DNA from: Deltaproteobacteria bacterium
GTDB lineage: Bacteria > Myxococcota > XYA12-FULL-58-9 > JABJBS01
Direction: 5' to 3'
NCBI GenBank assembly: GCA_018668695.1
Contig: JABJBS010000402.1
Location: forward strand, 1-37,963
Length of the DNA: 37,963 nt
The position numbers and the translations under genes are program-made. Under the pieces are notes generated by a model, which saw only the letters and a program-made list of their open reading frames with translations, did no database searches and was not told the origin of the DNA. Every line of letters begins with the position of its first letter. The first letter of the stretch is position 1. This document shows positions 10,884-17,597 of this stretch, piece after piece.

Positions 10884-11972
10884 TTAGTTTGGAGGTCCTG
10901 CGGTGCGGCAGCCTGCAGGTGCTGACGTTCCACTGGGCAAATCACGACAAAAGCACTCGTTTTGCTCGGTTGTATTGCATTGGTCTCCGTTGGACCGGTT
11001 GCACATCTTTGATTCCACATCAAAGCAGCGGGTGGTGTCGCTGCGCGTAGAGTACTGAATGTAGTAATCCACCGATTGATACGTGTAAGAAAGCCGCCGC
11101 GTTTCTGTGCCGTCACTCTTAGCGCTGGTTGTGTAATCTAAAGAGCTGGCATCGATTGGAGCACCGCCAGGTCTAGAGGTGCTTACCCGAGGTAGGTCTG
11201 CTTCGTCGACTTCGCCTCTCAGGCACTTGAGAATATACGGCTGTTCACTGGATGTGTGGTACCGGTAGCCGAATGTCTCGTCTGTTTGGCCATTGCATGG
11301 GTCAAGCGCCGATGAGGCAATGCTGGAACCATCGGGGTTGTTGTTTCCGTAGATGGGGTAACCATCGTAGGCCCAGCCGATGATTGGGTTTGCGTCTTTG
11401 TTATCCATCATGGCAATCATACAATCTGGTGATTTGTGATAATGGTAATCATCGCCCTTGCCAGCATGCCCGCCGCAATTGTCCAGTTGCCCCAACAAGG
11501 TTGTGTCTTGGTTACTCTCATATTGAGAATTTCCATCGTCGTCCATTTGCAACTCACCGCCCGCGGAGTAATCGTAAATCGGTACACCGTTGACTGCCAC
11601 GCCGAGAGCAGAATCACGAGTGGTGACGGTATCGGCAACCACGGGGCTTAACCGAATAGGAGCTTCAAAGTCTGGGGCGGGTGCCGGGACCTGTTCGTTG
11701 GTCCCAACGATGCCATTCATGAGGTCGTGGGCAGGGTAGGTGTCGGCTCCAAGGTGTGCAAATTGAGAATCACATCGGACGGCGACTTCTTCAGCAAAAC
11801 CGGCATCTGAAATAGATGCGCGAATCACGGTGCAGCGGTCGTCGGTATCCACGTCAGGGTTTGTGATGTCACTTGGCGAAGAGCTATCGTTGCCTGTTGT
11901 ATCGGAGTCATCGCCTCCGCAAGCAGTCAGTTGCGCGGTGACGAATAGCGTAGCGAAGATAAGAGAGCGCAT
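10884..11972 (-). CDS. YHYH-domain lipoprotein
   Basis: A 362-residue predicted lipoprotein (lipobox LTAC, Cys18) followed by a low-complexity Ser/Thr/Asp linker. The YHYH domain is recognised from its name-giving motif DDYHYHKSPDC in the middle of the protein and the nearby GWAYDGYPIYG. Many aspartates and paired cysteines suggest metal binding and disulfides, as usual for secreted members. The function of YHYH domains is not established. The gene is divergent from a beta-rich lipoprotein plus a PEBP-like lipoprotein and co-transcribed with the membrane-anchored protein downstream. These neighbours point to a cell-surface module. Confidence 0.9.
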   Translation of the reverse strand: MRSLIFATLFVTAQLTACGGDDSDTTGNDSSSPSDITNPDVDTDDRCTVIRASISDAGFAEEVAVRCDSQFAHLGADTYPAHDLMNGIVGTNEQVPAPAPDFEAPIRLSPVVADTVTTRDSALGVAVNGVPIYDYSAGGELQMDDDGNSQYESNQDTTLLGQLDNCGGHAGKGDDYHYHKSPDCMIAMMDNKDANPIIGWAYDGYPIYGNNNPDGSSIASSALDPCNGQTDETFGYRYHTSSEQPYILKCLRGEVDEADLPRVSTSRPGGAPIDASSLDYTTSAKSDGTETRRLSYTYQSVDYYIQYSTRSDTTRCFDVESKMCNRSNGDQCNTTEQNECFCRDLPSGTSAPAGCRTAGPPN

Positions 11973-12920: not shown

Positions 12921-12952
12921 ATTGAGGTTTGATAAACCCTGGGGAGTAAGTG

Positions 12953-13573
12953 ATGAAGTTTTACCGATACTTAATGAAGCAACTGATTTTGGGCTTACTG
13001 GCTCTGAGCCTGTTGGGATGCGGGAGTGATTCCGAGCCTGCCGATAACAATGCTGGCCAAGAGGATTCCGGTTCAACGAACACCGCGACTGAAGATTTTG
13101 GAGACTTCCAAGTGAGCAGTACCGCCTTTAATGCAGGGGATACTTTGCCGGAAGACTATGCTTGCTCTCGCGATGGCGGCGGTGATTTGTCGCCGCCAGT
13201 GACGTGGTCGGGGGCGCCGGAGGGTGTCACTGAGTATGCGCTCGTGATGTATCACTACCCACAAGGCCAAACCGACAACCCAAGTCATTATTGGCTTGTT
13301 TGGAACATTCCATCCTCTATCAACTCGTTAGACGCTGGCAATTTGGAGAGCATCGGGAATGAAGGCAGTAATAAGGATGGCGTTGCAATTGGTTATACGC
13401 CGCCATGTTCACCTGGAGATGCTGTCCACGAATATACGATTCGTGTCTATGCACTGAGCGCTGCCCCGGAGGCCTTGGGGAGCTCAGATAACGTTTCTAT
13501 AGGTTGGGCTGAATTTGTCGCTGCAGTGGAGCCCCTTTCTCTCGGAATGACTGAGTTCTCGTTTACGAATTAA
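12953..13573 (+). CDS. PEBP-family (YbhB/YbcL-like) lipoprotein
   Basis: A 206-residue predicted lipoprotein (lipobox LLGC, Cys23). I use the ATG at 12953, with GGGGAG six bases upstream, rather than the adjacent GTG at 12950. After an acidic linker comes a phosphatidylethanolamine-binding-protein fold: TWSGAPEGVTEYALVM (outline), the HYWLVWNIP strand and the late GYTPPCSP loop followed by HEYTIRVYAL. The usual DPDAP loop of the family is replaced by a His/Tyr-containing segment, MYHYPQGQT. Bacterial members have unclear roles. The operon partner is the beta-rich lipoprotein, and the YHYH lipoprotein is divergent. Confidence 0.9.
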   Translation: MKFYRYLMKQLILGLLALSLLGCGSDSEPADNNAGQEDSGSTNTATEDFGDFQVSSTAFNAGDTLPEDYACSRDGGGDLSPPVTWSGAPEGVTEYALVMYHYPQGQTDNPSHYWLVWNIPSSINSLDAGNLESIGNEGSNKDGVAIGYTPPCSPGDAVHEYTIRVYALSAAPEALGSSDNVSIGWAEFVAAVEPLSLGMTEFSFTN

Positions 13574-13660
13574 GTTCGTCGTGCCTTTTGTTTTAGTCTT
13601 TTGCGGAGAGTTCTTTCTCCGCAACTTGGACCGTTGCCCCGCCTGGACAAGTCTGATAAT

Positions 13661-13812
13661 CGCATGACTGGGTGGCTGAGAGATCAGCGTAACAGGGAAA
13701 TCGGTGTAAATCCGATGCGGACCCGCCACCGTAAGAAAGCATGCTTTGTCATATGCCACTGGGAAACTGGGAAGGCGACAAAGACGCCGCTTTCGAGCCG
13801 GGAGACCTACCC
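13661..13812 (+). ncRNA. Cobalamin (B12) riboswitch aptamer
   Basis: The region shows the conserved parts of the cobalamin riboswitch in order: GGTGG opening strand (13671-13675), a GCTGA/TCAGC hairpin with GAGA loop (13675-13688), ACAGGGAA (13693-13700), the TCGG/CCGA stem and GACCCGCCACCGTAA region, the B12-box-like GCCACTG (13755-13761), CTGGGAAGGCG, and GAGCCGGGAGACC (13795-13807), whose ACC can pair with the opening GGT. The next gene on this strand, and the only one before a convergent gene, is the lipoprotein at 13917. Exact ends are uncertain by about ten bases. Confidence 0.93.
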
Positions 13813-13916
13813 AACATTCAACTTCAATTCCCTCGGGTATAGGGCCGATTGATTCTATGTGCTTAATTCTTAGCACACGTTTCAATGGCTCGATGTATGG
13901 GGAAAAGGATGCAGTG
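13813..13916 (+). promoter_or_regulatory. Expression platform of the cobalamin riboswitch
   Basis: Between aptamer and start codon, CCTACCC (13806-13812) can pair with GGGTATAGG (13835-13843), and CCCT/AGGG can form an alternative hairpin in the same stretch. A second hairpin has arms TGTGCT (13858-13863) and AGCACA (13872-13877) without a clear U-run. An AAGGA (13905-13909) precedes the start. I cannot tell transcriptional from translational control; the lack of a U-tract slightly favours translation. Confidence 0.5.
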
Positions 13917-14342
13917 ATGCAACGTTTTTCAGTTTTAGCGATTGTTTGTTCCGTTTTAGCAGTAGGTTTTTTGTCTGGTTGTGGCGACGACACAAGCAGT
14001 GACTTAGCTATTTTGGGTCAGTATGTAGACAACTACGATACCAACCACGAAATCACCAACGAGATGTGGACCAGCGGTGAAAGCGGGTTCATGATTACTC
14101 AGTTCTCCAACGAGTCTCAAATGCTTATTGCGCAAAACAGCAGTGAAAATGAGTGGAGTGCTAATCTTTGGAGCCGTTTTGATTGGACTGAAGATTCCGA
14201 TGGTCTTTGGATTTGTCAGACAGCTTATGATGCCGAGTCTGAAGAAGCGGCTATGAATATAGCTGCTGCTGATGCAACAGATCCAGCTAATACGGGTTGT
14301 AGTAGCTTCTCTTGGACCAAGCTGGTCGCAGCTGGCGAGTAA
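13917..14342 (+). CDS. Small lipoprotein under cobalamin riboswitch control
   Basis: A 141-residue predicted lipoprotein (lipobox LSGC, Cys22). I chose the ATG at 13917, which gives a normal signal peptide; upstream in-frame ATGs at 13746 and 13895 would place the riboswitch or leader inside the coding region. The mature part of about 120 residues is acidic, rich in Trp, Asn and Ser, and contains LWSRFDWTEDSDG, WICQTAYDAE and CSSFSWTKL, with two Cys likely forming a disulfide. I do not recognise a named domain; it faintly recalls small secreted domains found in several copies in other predatory or marine Deltaproteobacteria-like genomes (memory only). Being the only gene downstream of the riboswitch, it should be repressed when cobalamin is plentiful. 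Cobalamin capture at the surface is a plausible but untested role. Confidence 0.85.
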   Translation: MQRFSVLAIVCSVLAVGFLSGCGDDTSSDLAILGQYVDNYDTNHEITNEMWTSGESGFMITQFSNESQMLIAQNSSENEWSANLWSRFDWTEDSDGLWICQTAYDAESEEAAMNIAAADATDPANTGCSSFSWTKLVAAGE

Positions 14343-14393: not shown

Positions 14394-15014
14394 CTAGTCT
14401 TTAAACAATTTCTTAGCAGCTTTAATTTGCTCTTTCGATGGCCAACCACCAGGGCCTTCACCCTCTCCGTTTGCGACCAATCTTGAAAGATACATTTCTG
14501 TTCGGTCCTCCGCCGAGACAACCACGCGTTCAATCGTTTTGCCTTGGGCATAGTCCACCTTATTCATATTGCGAACCATATGTTCGAAGGAGTCATTGGC
14601 AGCTCTTCGGTTGGGTGCATCTGGGGCGGCTCTAAACTGGGGAAGAAAAGCATAGCCAAGCTGATTGATTTGCACCGCACTGCTCACGTTTCCTTCTTCG
14701 ATGAGGTCACGCTGGGTTTGGCGGTAGGTGTCGGAGTTAAAGCCACTGGCATCGGCAGTCGTTTGGGTACCCGTTCCGATATGGTCTCGGTGAAAACCTT
14801 TCACTTCTTGGTAAGCCCATGCTTCTTTTTCGAGTTTTCGTGAAGCCTTGGTTTTACCGCGCTTACCTTCGGCGGATTGGTTGAGCGGCGCGAAACCGAT
14901 GGTATGTTCTGACTCGTGCGTATTTCCTGTAACCTTCTCGCCGTGCGCTCGCGTAAGTCTTCTTTGCTCGCGTCGTTTGGCTCCGTGTTGTCCAATTGCA
15001 TACTTCATCGCCAT
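14394..15014 (-). CDS. Orphan basic cytosolic protein, function unknown
   Basis: A 206-residue protein from the ATG at 15014, which has AAGGTG six bases upstream; a GTG at 15023 overlaps that ribosome-binding site and is unlikely. The N-terminal 55 residues are strongly basic (KRREQRRLTRAHGEK and KRGKTKASRKLEKE), without a signal peptide. A more conserved-looking middle includes HESEHTIGFAPLNQS, HRDHIGTGTQ and NQLGYAF, and a helical C-terminus ends in KEQIKAAKKLFKD. No family is recognised. The gene stands alone, convergent with the B12-controlled lipoprotein and divergent from the molybdate operon. Confidence 0.75.
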   Translation of the reverse strand: MAMKYAIGQHGAKRREQRRLTRAHGEKVTGNTHESEHTIGFAPLNQSAEGKRGKTKASRKLEKEAWAYQEVKGFHRDHIGTGTQTTADASGFNSDTYRQTQRDLIEEGNVSSAVQINQLGYAFLPQFRAAPDAPNRRAANDSFEHMVRNMNKVDYAQGKTIERVVVSAEDRTEMYLSRLVANGEGEGPGGWPSKEQIKAAKKLFKD

Positions 15015-15132
15015 GAATTTCACCTTGTTGAATGTTACATCTTAGATTTAGCAAGTCTTAGGCCAACCCTTTGATTTGAAAACATTAATAATTCTAGATG
15101 CTTAGTAAATGAACTGGTGGGTAGCGTGCTTC

Positions 15133-15206: not shown

Positions 15207-15287
15207 ATGCTCCTTCGTATTTTAGGCTTGCTGTACTTGACGTTTCTTAAGGCAACGGCAACAGCGCGAGGGACGGGCAGGTTTTAA
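15207..15287 (+). CDS. Putative 26-residue leader or signal-peptide-like sORF coupled to modA
   Basis: An ATG at 15207 has GAGGG seven bases upstream (15195-15199) and opens 26 codons whose TAA stop overlaps the modA ATG as TAATG. The peptide has a hydrophobic stretch (LLRILGLLYLTFL) then KATATARGTGRF, so it resembles a signal peptide or small membrane protein. The modA ribosome-binding site would lie inside it. It may be a translated leader that couples or regulates modA expression. The assignment rests on the ribosome-binding site and stop-start overlap; conservation is unknown. Confidence 0.45.
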   Translation: MLLRILGLLYLTFLKATATARGTGRF

Positions 15288-16057
15288 TGCTTCGTAATAC
15301 ATTATTGATTCTCATAATGGGATTGTCCCTGTTTGGGTGCAGCACACAAAGCGGCCATGACGAGCAGCGCTTGTTGGTCTATGCTGCCTCGTCGCTGACC
15401 GATGTATTGAAAAAGGTTGAGAAGCAATTTGAGTTGAAGCACCCCACGGTTGATTTGGATGTTGCTTACTCGGGGAGCCAGACCTTACGGCTACAGATTC
15501 AGCAGGGAGCCCCGGCGGATGTTTTCATTTCGGCCAATAGAAAACATATGAATATGTTGGTCAATGAGGGTAAAATTACTGAGCGCCGAATTCTGGCCTA
15601 CAACCGGTTGGCTTTGGTCTTGCCGAAGGGTAATCCAGCAGGGATCACTCAAGTTACCGAACTCGATAAAGCCAAGCGCCTGGTCATCGGTACGTCGGGA
15701 GTTCCAATTGGGCGATATACCCGGCAGTGGCTTTCAAAGATGAACCAAGTTGTTGATGGAGATTTTTCTCAACGTGTACTCAAGCGAGTCGTTTCTCAGG
15801 AAAATAACGTGCGCCTGCTTAGAGCTAAGGTAGAGCTGGGTGAAGCGGATGCCGCTATTGTATACTTTACGGATGCTATATCATCTGAGGGCGTTGAATA
15901 TTTACCCATCGAGGAAGAGTTGAATATTCGAACCGAGTATCAGTTGGGAGTTGTTTCCCAAAAGGAGACCAAGTCGGCCTTGGGTGTATGGTTCGCCTTT
16001 TTAGGCTCTGACGAGGTGCGGAAGTTGATGGCAGAAGAGGGGTTGGGTTTGCCATGA
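15287..16057 (+). CDS. modA: Molybdate ABC transporter, substrate-binding lipoprotein
   Basis: The 256-residue periplasmic binding protein captures molybdate (or tungstate) for import. A lipobox (LFGC, Cys18) shows it is lipid-anchored, unlike the soluble ModA of E. coli. Ligand-loop sequences are typical: [10 protein letters not shown] near residues 31-40, [20 protein letters not shown] (residues about 62-81), and the late YFTDA strand. It starts directly at the stop of the small upstream ORF and overlaps modB by four bases. Only the three transporter genes are present; no molybdopterin biosynthesis or ModE gene is adjacent. Confidence 0.95.
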
Positions 16058-16884
16058 GACAGGGTTCTGAACATACTACGAGCGGTAGATGGCGGTCCTT
16101 GTTACTGGCAATGCCGATGCTGGTCTTATTGGTGCTGCCGATATTTGCCCTGGTGTTCTCTTCGAGCCCAGCCGAGTTTATGGCCGGCACCCAGCACCCT
16201 TTGTTTTTTCCAGCACTTACTTTGAGCTTGCAGTCCACCTTTGTCAGTTTGATTTTGATTATACTCGCAGGGACGCCGTTGGCCTGGTGGCTCGCTCATT
16301 CATCAGGTCGCTCGACGAGAGTGATAGCTACTTTAGTTGAGTTACCGATTGTATTACCACCCGCAGTGATCGGAGTGGCTCTTCTGCAGGTTTTCGGTCG
16401 AAGTGGATTTTTTGGGGAGACACTTGCCGCGTTGGGTTGGCAGATTCCCTTCACAACCTTAGCCGTCATTCTTGCACAAACCGTGATAGCGGCTCCGTTT
16501 TATGTGCAATCTGCGACGGCCGCATTTAAACGCGTGGACTCTGATTTACTTCTGGTCGCGAGAACGCTTGGGCAAACCCGTATGGGCACTTTACTTCGTG
16601 TGGCGGTTCCTCTTGCTTTACCCGGGTTATTAAGCGGCGCAGCTTTGGCCTGGGCGCGGGCACTGGGTGAGTTTGGTGCAACACTGCTATTTGCCGGTAA
16701 CCTCTCCGGCGAAACACAGACCATGCCCTTGGCGATTTATACCGCTCTAGAATCTGATGTGCGAGCTGCCTTGGCTCTCGCTTTGGTTTTGGCCGCTGGT
16801 GCGACCATACTGCTCATGTCACTTCGATTGCTTCCTATTCGCTGGCTTAGAGATTCGAAGTATGGCTTGGAAGGCAATTCATGA
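16054..16884 (+). CDS. modB: Molybdate ABC transporter, permease
   Basis: A 276-residue inner-membrane permease with about six helices. The N-terminal extension before helix 1 is hydrophilic (residues 1-12). The EAA-type cytoplasmic loop that contacts ModC is visible as [20 protein letters not shown] around residues 169-188, followed by the [11 protein letters not shown]-like segment [17 protein letters not shown], characteristic of ModB/CysTW-type permeases. It overlaps modA and modC by four bases each, so the three subunits are translated in a coupled manner. Confidence 0.95.
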
Positions 16885-17597
16885 GTTGGCAGATATCGAT
16901 GAAGCTTGGCCTTGGGGCACTTGATCTTGAAGTGAATATCGAAGGCAGTCGTCAGCCCACGGCACTGATAGGGCCCAATGGTTCTGGAAAAACAACCTTG
17001 CTACGAGCGGTGGCAGGTGCCTTCACACCTGATGTTGGCCGGTTTCAAATTGGTGATAACGTTCTCTTCGATTCACAAAGTGAAATTGACAGAGCTCCAG
17101 AGCAGCGCAAAGTGGGTTACGTGCCTCAGGGCTTTGGGCTGTTTCCGCATCTGCGCGTGATTGATAATGTGGCGTTTGGCTTAAGTGCAAAGCTCTCTCG
17201 GGAAGCGCGCCGCTCGCTTGCATCAAAGCAGCTTGAGCAAATCAACGGTACTGAATTGTCCAATCGCTGGCCTTCAACACTCTCCGGTGGCGAGAAGCAG
17301 CGCATTGCCTTGGCCCGAGCGCTTATTACTGAGCCTGATCTGCTGCTTTTGGATGAGCCGCTCTCGGCTCTGGATGTATCAGCACGTCGTTCTCTGCGAG
17401 CTCACCTCGCTCAGCATCTTTCGAACTCGGAGACCCCGACCATCATTGTGACGCATGATATTAGAGATGTGGTGGCTTTGGAGGCGACGGTTATTGTCTT
17501 GGAGAAGGGGCGCATCGTGCAGCGCGGGAGCTTAGATGATTTACGTGCGAATCCCGCCAATGATTTTGTCGCCGAGTTTTGTCACACAGAGGTGTGA
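16881..17597 (+). CDS. modC: Molybdate ABC transporter, ATPase
   Basis: A 238-residue ABC ATPase. Walker A is GPNGSGKTT (residues 31-39), the signature is [15 protein letters not shown] and Walker B is [12 protein letters not shown], followed by the switch VTHDI. It is short compared with E. coli ModC (about 350 residues), because the C-terminal molybdate-sensing TOBE domain is absent. This means the trans-inhibition by bound molybdate seen in some ModC proteins would not occur. The gene overlaps modB by four bases and ends at a strong convergent hairpin. Confidence 0.94.

Follow-up and report, generated by a model that had tools for sequence, protein, structure and literature searches.

A complete cobalamin riboswitch precedes the gene of a 141-aa lipoprotein (P0001) in the window, which is the whole 37,963-nt stretch of DNA that was analysed. 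The protein family to which P0001 belongs, not previously connected with such elements, is tied to B12 riboswitches in two phyla (the phylum names are inferred). The reading that best accounts for these findings, with a probability of about 0.68, is that P0001 is a B12-repressed outer-membrane lipoprotein that captures corrinoid for a BtuB-like receptor. Taken separately, there is little doubt that P0001 is a component of B12 uptake in one role or another, and it is probable, in the absence of binding data, that it binds corrinoid. Cell-surface capture of B12 by lipoproteins is documented mainly in gut Bacteroides.

A cobalamin riboswitch with a single target

The locus comprises the following features:

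12950-13573: PEBP-family lipoprotein gene, the upstream neighbour
13598-13623 (+): inverted repeat GCGGAGA-TCTCCGC just 3' of the PEBP-family gene, read from the sequence
13656-13828 (+): complete cobalamin riboswitch aptamer (RF00174), covariance-model match (cmscan)
13829-13916 (+): expression platform, predicted only
13899-13909 (+): Shine-Dalgarno-like GGGGAAAAGGA, 7 nt 5' of ATG 13917, read from the sequence
13917-14342 (+): gene of the 141-aa lipoprotein P0001, ORF with ATG at 13917
14394-15023 (-): convergent ORF of 209 aa, which ends the transcription unit

An earlier note on this DNA had described the aptamer as close to textbook and had proposed a search with the Cobalamin covariance model in Infernal. 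The search gave a full-length match to RF00174 (100.9 bits against a gathering threshold of 31.5; E = 2.7e-24; model positions 1-189, i.e., all 189), which bears out the description; the span given there (13661-14342) is correct except that it clips 5 nt of the aptamer. The aptamer is the sole Rfam match within the window, and RF00174 has no second match anywhere in the genome (5.87 Mb in 424 contigs, 98.6% complete). Its end is separated from ATG 13917 by 88 nt; an in-frame ATG exists at 13893, upstream of the Shine-Dalgarno region, and 13917 is the likelier start of the lipoprotein. Because the next ORF lies on the minus strand, the lipoprotein transcript is monocistronic and is the sole target of the riboswitch, as the note had recognised. 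The inverted repeat separates the PEBP-family gene from the riboswitch and is possibly the terminator of that gene, which is an inference only; a consensus terminator scan did not flag it.

The convergent ORF matches Agro_virD5 (PF04730) across a stretch rich in Lys, Arg, and Gln, a match that is probably compositional. Just past it lie apparent genes of a molybdate-type ABC transporter (solute-binding protein, permease, and ATPase; 15287-17597), and a secreted protein with a YHYH domain (PF14240) is encoded at 10884-11972 (-), near more small lipoproteins.

The mode of control can be inferred only from predicted structure. According to prediction, UCCCUC directly 3' of the aptamer could form a helix with the Shine-Dalgarno GGGGA that encloses a long hairpin. 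Such pairing would be consistent with translational repression by B12, and no intrinsic terminator was found behind the aptamer. A switch is not demonstrated: the folding program hides the Shine-Dalgarno region in both modelled states, the unconstrained fold included, and no L13 partner for L5 (L5-L13 kissing loop) was recognised by eye.

A small beta domain without a structural match

P0001 has a signal peptide and a lipobox (LSG-C22) that places the lipidation cysteine at Cys22, and its mature part of 120 residues contains six tryptophans, in agreement with the initial description as a Trp-rich lipoprotein. A Pfam search assigned it to no family at cut-off (DUF4465 included). An alignment of 25 domains defines a domain of about 110 aa, in which C100 is invariant and C128, W51, and W133 are nearly so; a disulfide between C100 and C128 is probable. 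The AlphaFold2 model is all-beta and confident (pLDDT 93-98 per ten-residue block over residues 31-140). Foldseek comparisons of this model with the PDB (best E = 0.6) and with viral models (BFVD) gave no significant match, nor did a sequence profile of the domain searched against the PDB; the fold comparison was confined to PDB and BFVD and included no predicted cellular structures.

Recurrent association with riboswitches in the same phylum

The domain is encoded in 17 of the 195 genomes of the window's phylum, by 20 homologous genes including that of P0001. They were obtained by whole-genome profile searches, a prior related-locus search with P0001 over the genome contigs having given none, and a gene split across two contigs (in G006) was entered once. 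The start codon lies 8-131 nt 3' of a same-strand RF00174 aptamer in 15 of these genes. Two more (in G016 and G022) sit within riboswitch-led clusters whose first gene codes for a TonB receptor or is an ORF of receptor size, and the other three have no riboswitch within the several kilobases examined. Since most genomes of the phylum hold just 1-5 RF00174 riboswitches each, the probability of such proximity by chance is negligible; the loci are related by descent, and their riboswitch pairings are not independent events. The earlier note had accepted that homologues never associated with B12 riboswitches or B12 genes would refute its interpretation, and with 15 of 20 genes linked directly and two within riboswitch-led clusters, the interpretation survives.

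By a simple rule rather than a trained predictor, the riboswitch-linked homologues start with lipoprotein-like signals, with one doubtful case (L188). The number of domain copies ranges from one to several in tandem, with a maximum of five per protein. Five are present in a protein of about 590 aa without a nearby riboswitch (locus L158; G015:C74, 7462-9234, minus strand). At another locus of the same genome (L064; G015:C81), two genes of the family follow each other in succession, each with its own cobalamin riboswitch before it.

Homologues in spirochaetes

P0001 matches the family of the Leptospira exoprotein LIC13354 (NCBIfam NF047669) weakly, with an E value of 6e-5 and 23.4 bits, well short of the curated cut-off of 130. 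Ten other members of the P0001 family match the same profile with E values from 8e-4 to 5e-17 (62.6 bits for the best relative). Judged by these profile scores, P0001 is a distant relative of the LIC13354 family that shares the domain and is not a member. NF047669 by itself recovered few spirochaete members; searched with a profile built from the domain alignment, 30 of 393 spirochaete genomes proved to encode the domain.

At eight of the 30 spirochaete loci, a B12-class riboswitch above the gathering threshold lies shortly 5' of the gene and in its orientation; six of these belong to RF00174 and two to the different class RF01689 (AdoCbl-II). The association is thus present in spirochaetes as well. 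When 20 further loci were searched permissively, 17 matches to the same riboswitch clan were returned, many of them to RF01482. Of the 17, 16 fall within the short region 5' of the gene and in its orientation, which makes up only about 6% of the searched sequence (P ~ 1e-18). Some of these sub-threshold matches are individually non-significant (E up to 0.29) and gain significance as a set, which renders weak-scoring spirochaete riboswitches recognisable through the gene that they precede. At six of the 30 loci, no B12 riboswitch was found either above or below threshold. The occurrence of more than one riboswitch class before the genes of a single family points to selection for regulation by B12.

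Receptors and partner lipoproteins at homologous loci

The genes behind homologue-linked riboswitches include TonB receptors, one of which matches BtuB of E. coli (E = 5e-13). A further neighbour is a family of propeller-type lipoproteins. Its identification as BtuG is only weakly supported: a search of its sequence profile against the PDB gave a weak pointer to BtuG structures, together with 'putative surface layer' and YncE-type chains at E ~0.6.

A second neighbouring lipoprotein shows 43-51% identity among loci, and one member matches the NCBIfam family LIC_13355 (NF033170; 5e-14). A matching gene is present at 22 of the 30 spirochaete loci, and the curated cut-off of LIC_13355 is passed by all ten spirochaete genes tested. 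LIC13354 and LIC13355 are consecutive locus numbers in Leptospira, which suggests that the two-gene unit of homologue and partner is conserved across phyla. In a Foldseek comparison with the whole PDB, the model of the LIC_13355-type protein encoded by the host of the window has its best match, and the only one below 1e-3, with 8blw_B (E = 9e-4), the lipoprotein chain of the BtuB1-BtuG1 complex of B. theta. A later paper names the protein of this chain BtuGH and describes it as two fused domains that each bind B12 (PMC12751083). Given the mediocre quality of the model (pLDDT 67) and an rmsd of 12.6 in the match, the link between the LIC_13355-type partner and a BtuG-type lipoprotein is suggestive and no proof.

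The literature on Leptospira raises the alternative that P0001 serves adhesion to a host or a surface and that the B12 level does no more than set the timing of its expression. Refolded recombinant LIC_13355 is reported to bind laminin and plasminogen (PMC11891782), a property described for the family of the operon partner and not for that of P0001, and in host-adapted L. interrogans, LIC13354 and LIC13355 are raised 3.8- and 3.7-fold, respectively (PMC3953431). An adhesin is nevertheless very improbable for a family that is common to another phylum, retains a B12 riboswitch there, and has BtuB-like neighbours in several genomes. The binding data for LIC_13355 and the host-adapted increase of both Leptospira genes deserve re-reading in terms of B12 uptake. 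No publication that links the LIC13354 or LIC_13355 family to B12 was found, nor any published function for the LIC13354 family, although most subscription papers were outside the search.

B12 genes of the host genome

The host encodes a single copy of the P0001 domain, and its LIC_13355-type gene (E = 7e-74) is located away from the P0001 gene. Use of B12 is indicated by a B12-binding domain in a MetH-like protein of 1239 aa and by a mutase-like gene pair. An apparent btuFDC-btuB-like operon on a separate contig (C123, L171; 983-7630, minus strand) encodes, in this order, a periplasmic binding protein, an ABC ATPase, a FecCD permease, a DUF5522/PF01902 protein, a TonB receptor, and a BtuG-like lipoprotein. 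Permissive searches detected no B12 riboswitch in or before this operon and none before the LIC_13355-like gene. That the single B12 riboswitch of the host is devoted to a small lipoprotein and not to the transporter operon is odd and remains unexplained.

The PF01902 (diphthamide synthase-like) protein of the operon (L171, 4120-4950, minus strand) has a counterpart near a lipoprotein homologue in a spirochaete (G060; L127, 3312-4064, plus strand), and a hitherto unrecognised link of PF01902 proteins to B12 uptake or salvage is possible.

With the lipoprotein gene on its own and the transporter operon without a riboswitch, it could be argued that the pairing is accidental or decayed, i.e., that an orphan riboswitch happens to stand before an unrelated envelope lipoprotein. 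This explanation, which retains next to no credibility, is rejected, because the pairing recurs in other lineages, namely at 15 of the 20 homologous genes in the phylum and again in spirochaetes, where it involves several classes of riboswitch; moreover, the aptamer of the host is complete and high scoring.

Proposed role of P0001

The most economical role for P0001, by analogy with the lipoproteins of Bacteroides, would be the capture of corrinoid and its delivery to a BtuB-like receptor. When cobamide is scarce in the cell, the riboswitch would be unbound and the lipoprotein made; when it is plentiful, cobamide would bind the aptamer and turn expression off, probably by hiding the Shine-Dalgarno region. 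After export and lipidation of Cys22, the lipoprotein would stay attached to the outer membrane. Its small beta domain, rich in tryptophan, most likely binds corrinoid there and passes it to a BtuB-like TonB receptor; in the host, the cognate receptor would be that of the separate, riboswitch-less btuFDC-btuB-like operon. Repression by B12, its translational mode, the surface location, corrinoid binding, and the hand-over to the receptor are all inferred. Membership in the functional class was judged by control through a B12 riboswitch and by a link to a BtuB-type receptor across genomes, which are both met; the receptor link is not in the window itself. Counting against the scheme are the isolated position of the P0001 gene in the host, where it does not stand beside a transporter, and the three homologues of the phylum and six spirochaete loci without a recognised riboswitch.

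It is also conceivable, if rather unlikely, that P0001 takes part in B12 uptake without binding B12, either as an accessory of a BtuB/BtuG-like complex or in vesicle release, as reported for BtuL of B. theta. The absence of any structural match of P0001 to known B12 binders counts against corrinoid binding and fits an accessory, as does the operon context with BtuB-like receptors. There is also precedent in B. theta, where many riboswitch-controlled lipoproteins bind cobalamin, whereas BtuK2 and BtuL do not (PMC12751083). Tandem arrays of up to five domains, however, suit a module for ligand binding or avidity, and the gene can also occur singly and at a distance from the receptor gene, which is the case in the host. 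Capture of corrinoid by P0001 remains the preferred reading.

If it is true, lipoprotein-based B12 capture extends to two further phyla, via a different protein domain. A broader proposal, whose parts hold jointly with about even chances, is that the domain defines an unrecognised family of cobamide-capturing outer-membrane lipoproteins, with a fold unmatched in the PDB, that serves both the Myxococcota-like phylum of the window and Spirochaetota, with the relatives of LIC13354 among its members. Together with LIC_13355, it would form a counterpart of BtuG/BtuH outside Bacteroidota, and the Leptospira pair would be B12 scavengers rather than adhesins. This offers a testable function for two NCBI families named only by Leptospira locus tags, and an alternative reading for a Leptospira protein now described as an adhesin.

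Comparison with known systems

The riboswitch of P0001 is a complete member of RF00174, yet its target lies outside the usual genes for transport, synthesis, and isozymes. In spirochaetes, the gene with the shared domain usually adjoins a LIC_13355 gene, and in the phylum of the window the same arrangement is seen for P0001 homologues of several genomes; LIC_13355 (NF033170) is their operon partner and constitutes a separate protein family.

The absence of a resemblance to BtuG and BtuH, already remarked upon in the earlier note, holds for both sequence and fold. BtuG is a beta-propeller, of which a study from 2018 detected no homologue beyond Bacteroidetes (PMC6143338); P0001, by contrast, consists of one beta domain of about 110 aa without a significant match in the PDB and occurs outside Bacteroidota. 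BtuH and BtuJ have a jelly-roll fold (DUF4465-type), whereas P0001 shows neither a DUF4465 match at the Pfam cut-off nor a jelly-roll fold match; the sequence of BtuK was absent from the comparisons. What P0001 has in common with BtuG, BtuH, BtuJ, and BtuK of Bacteroides is that it is a lipoprotein controlled by a B12 riboswitch, with a BtuB-type receptor co-encoded in several of its relatives, which makes it a putative functional analogue of these proteins.
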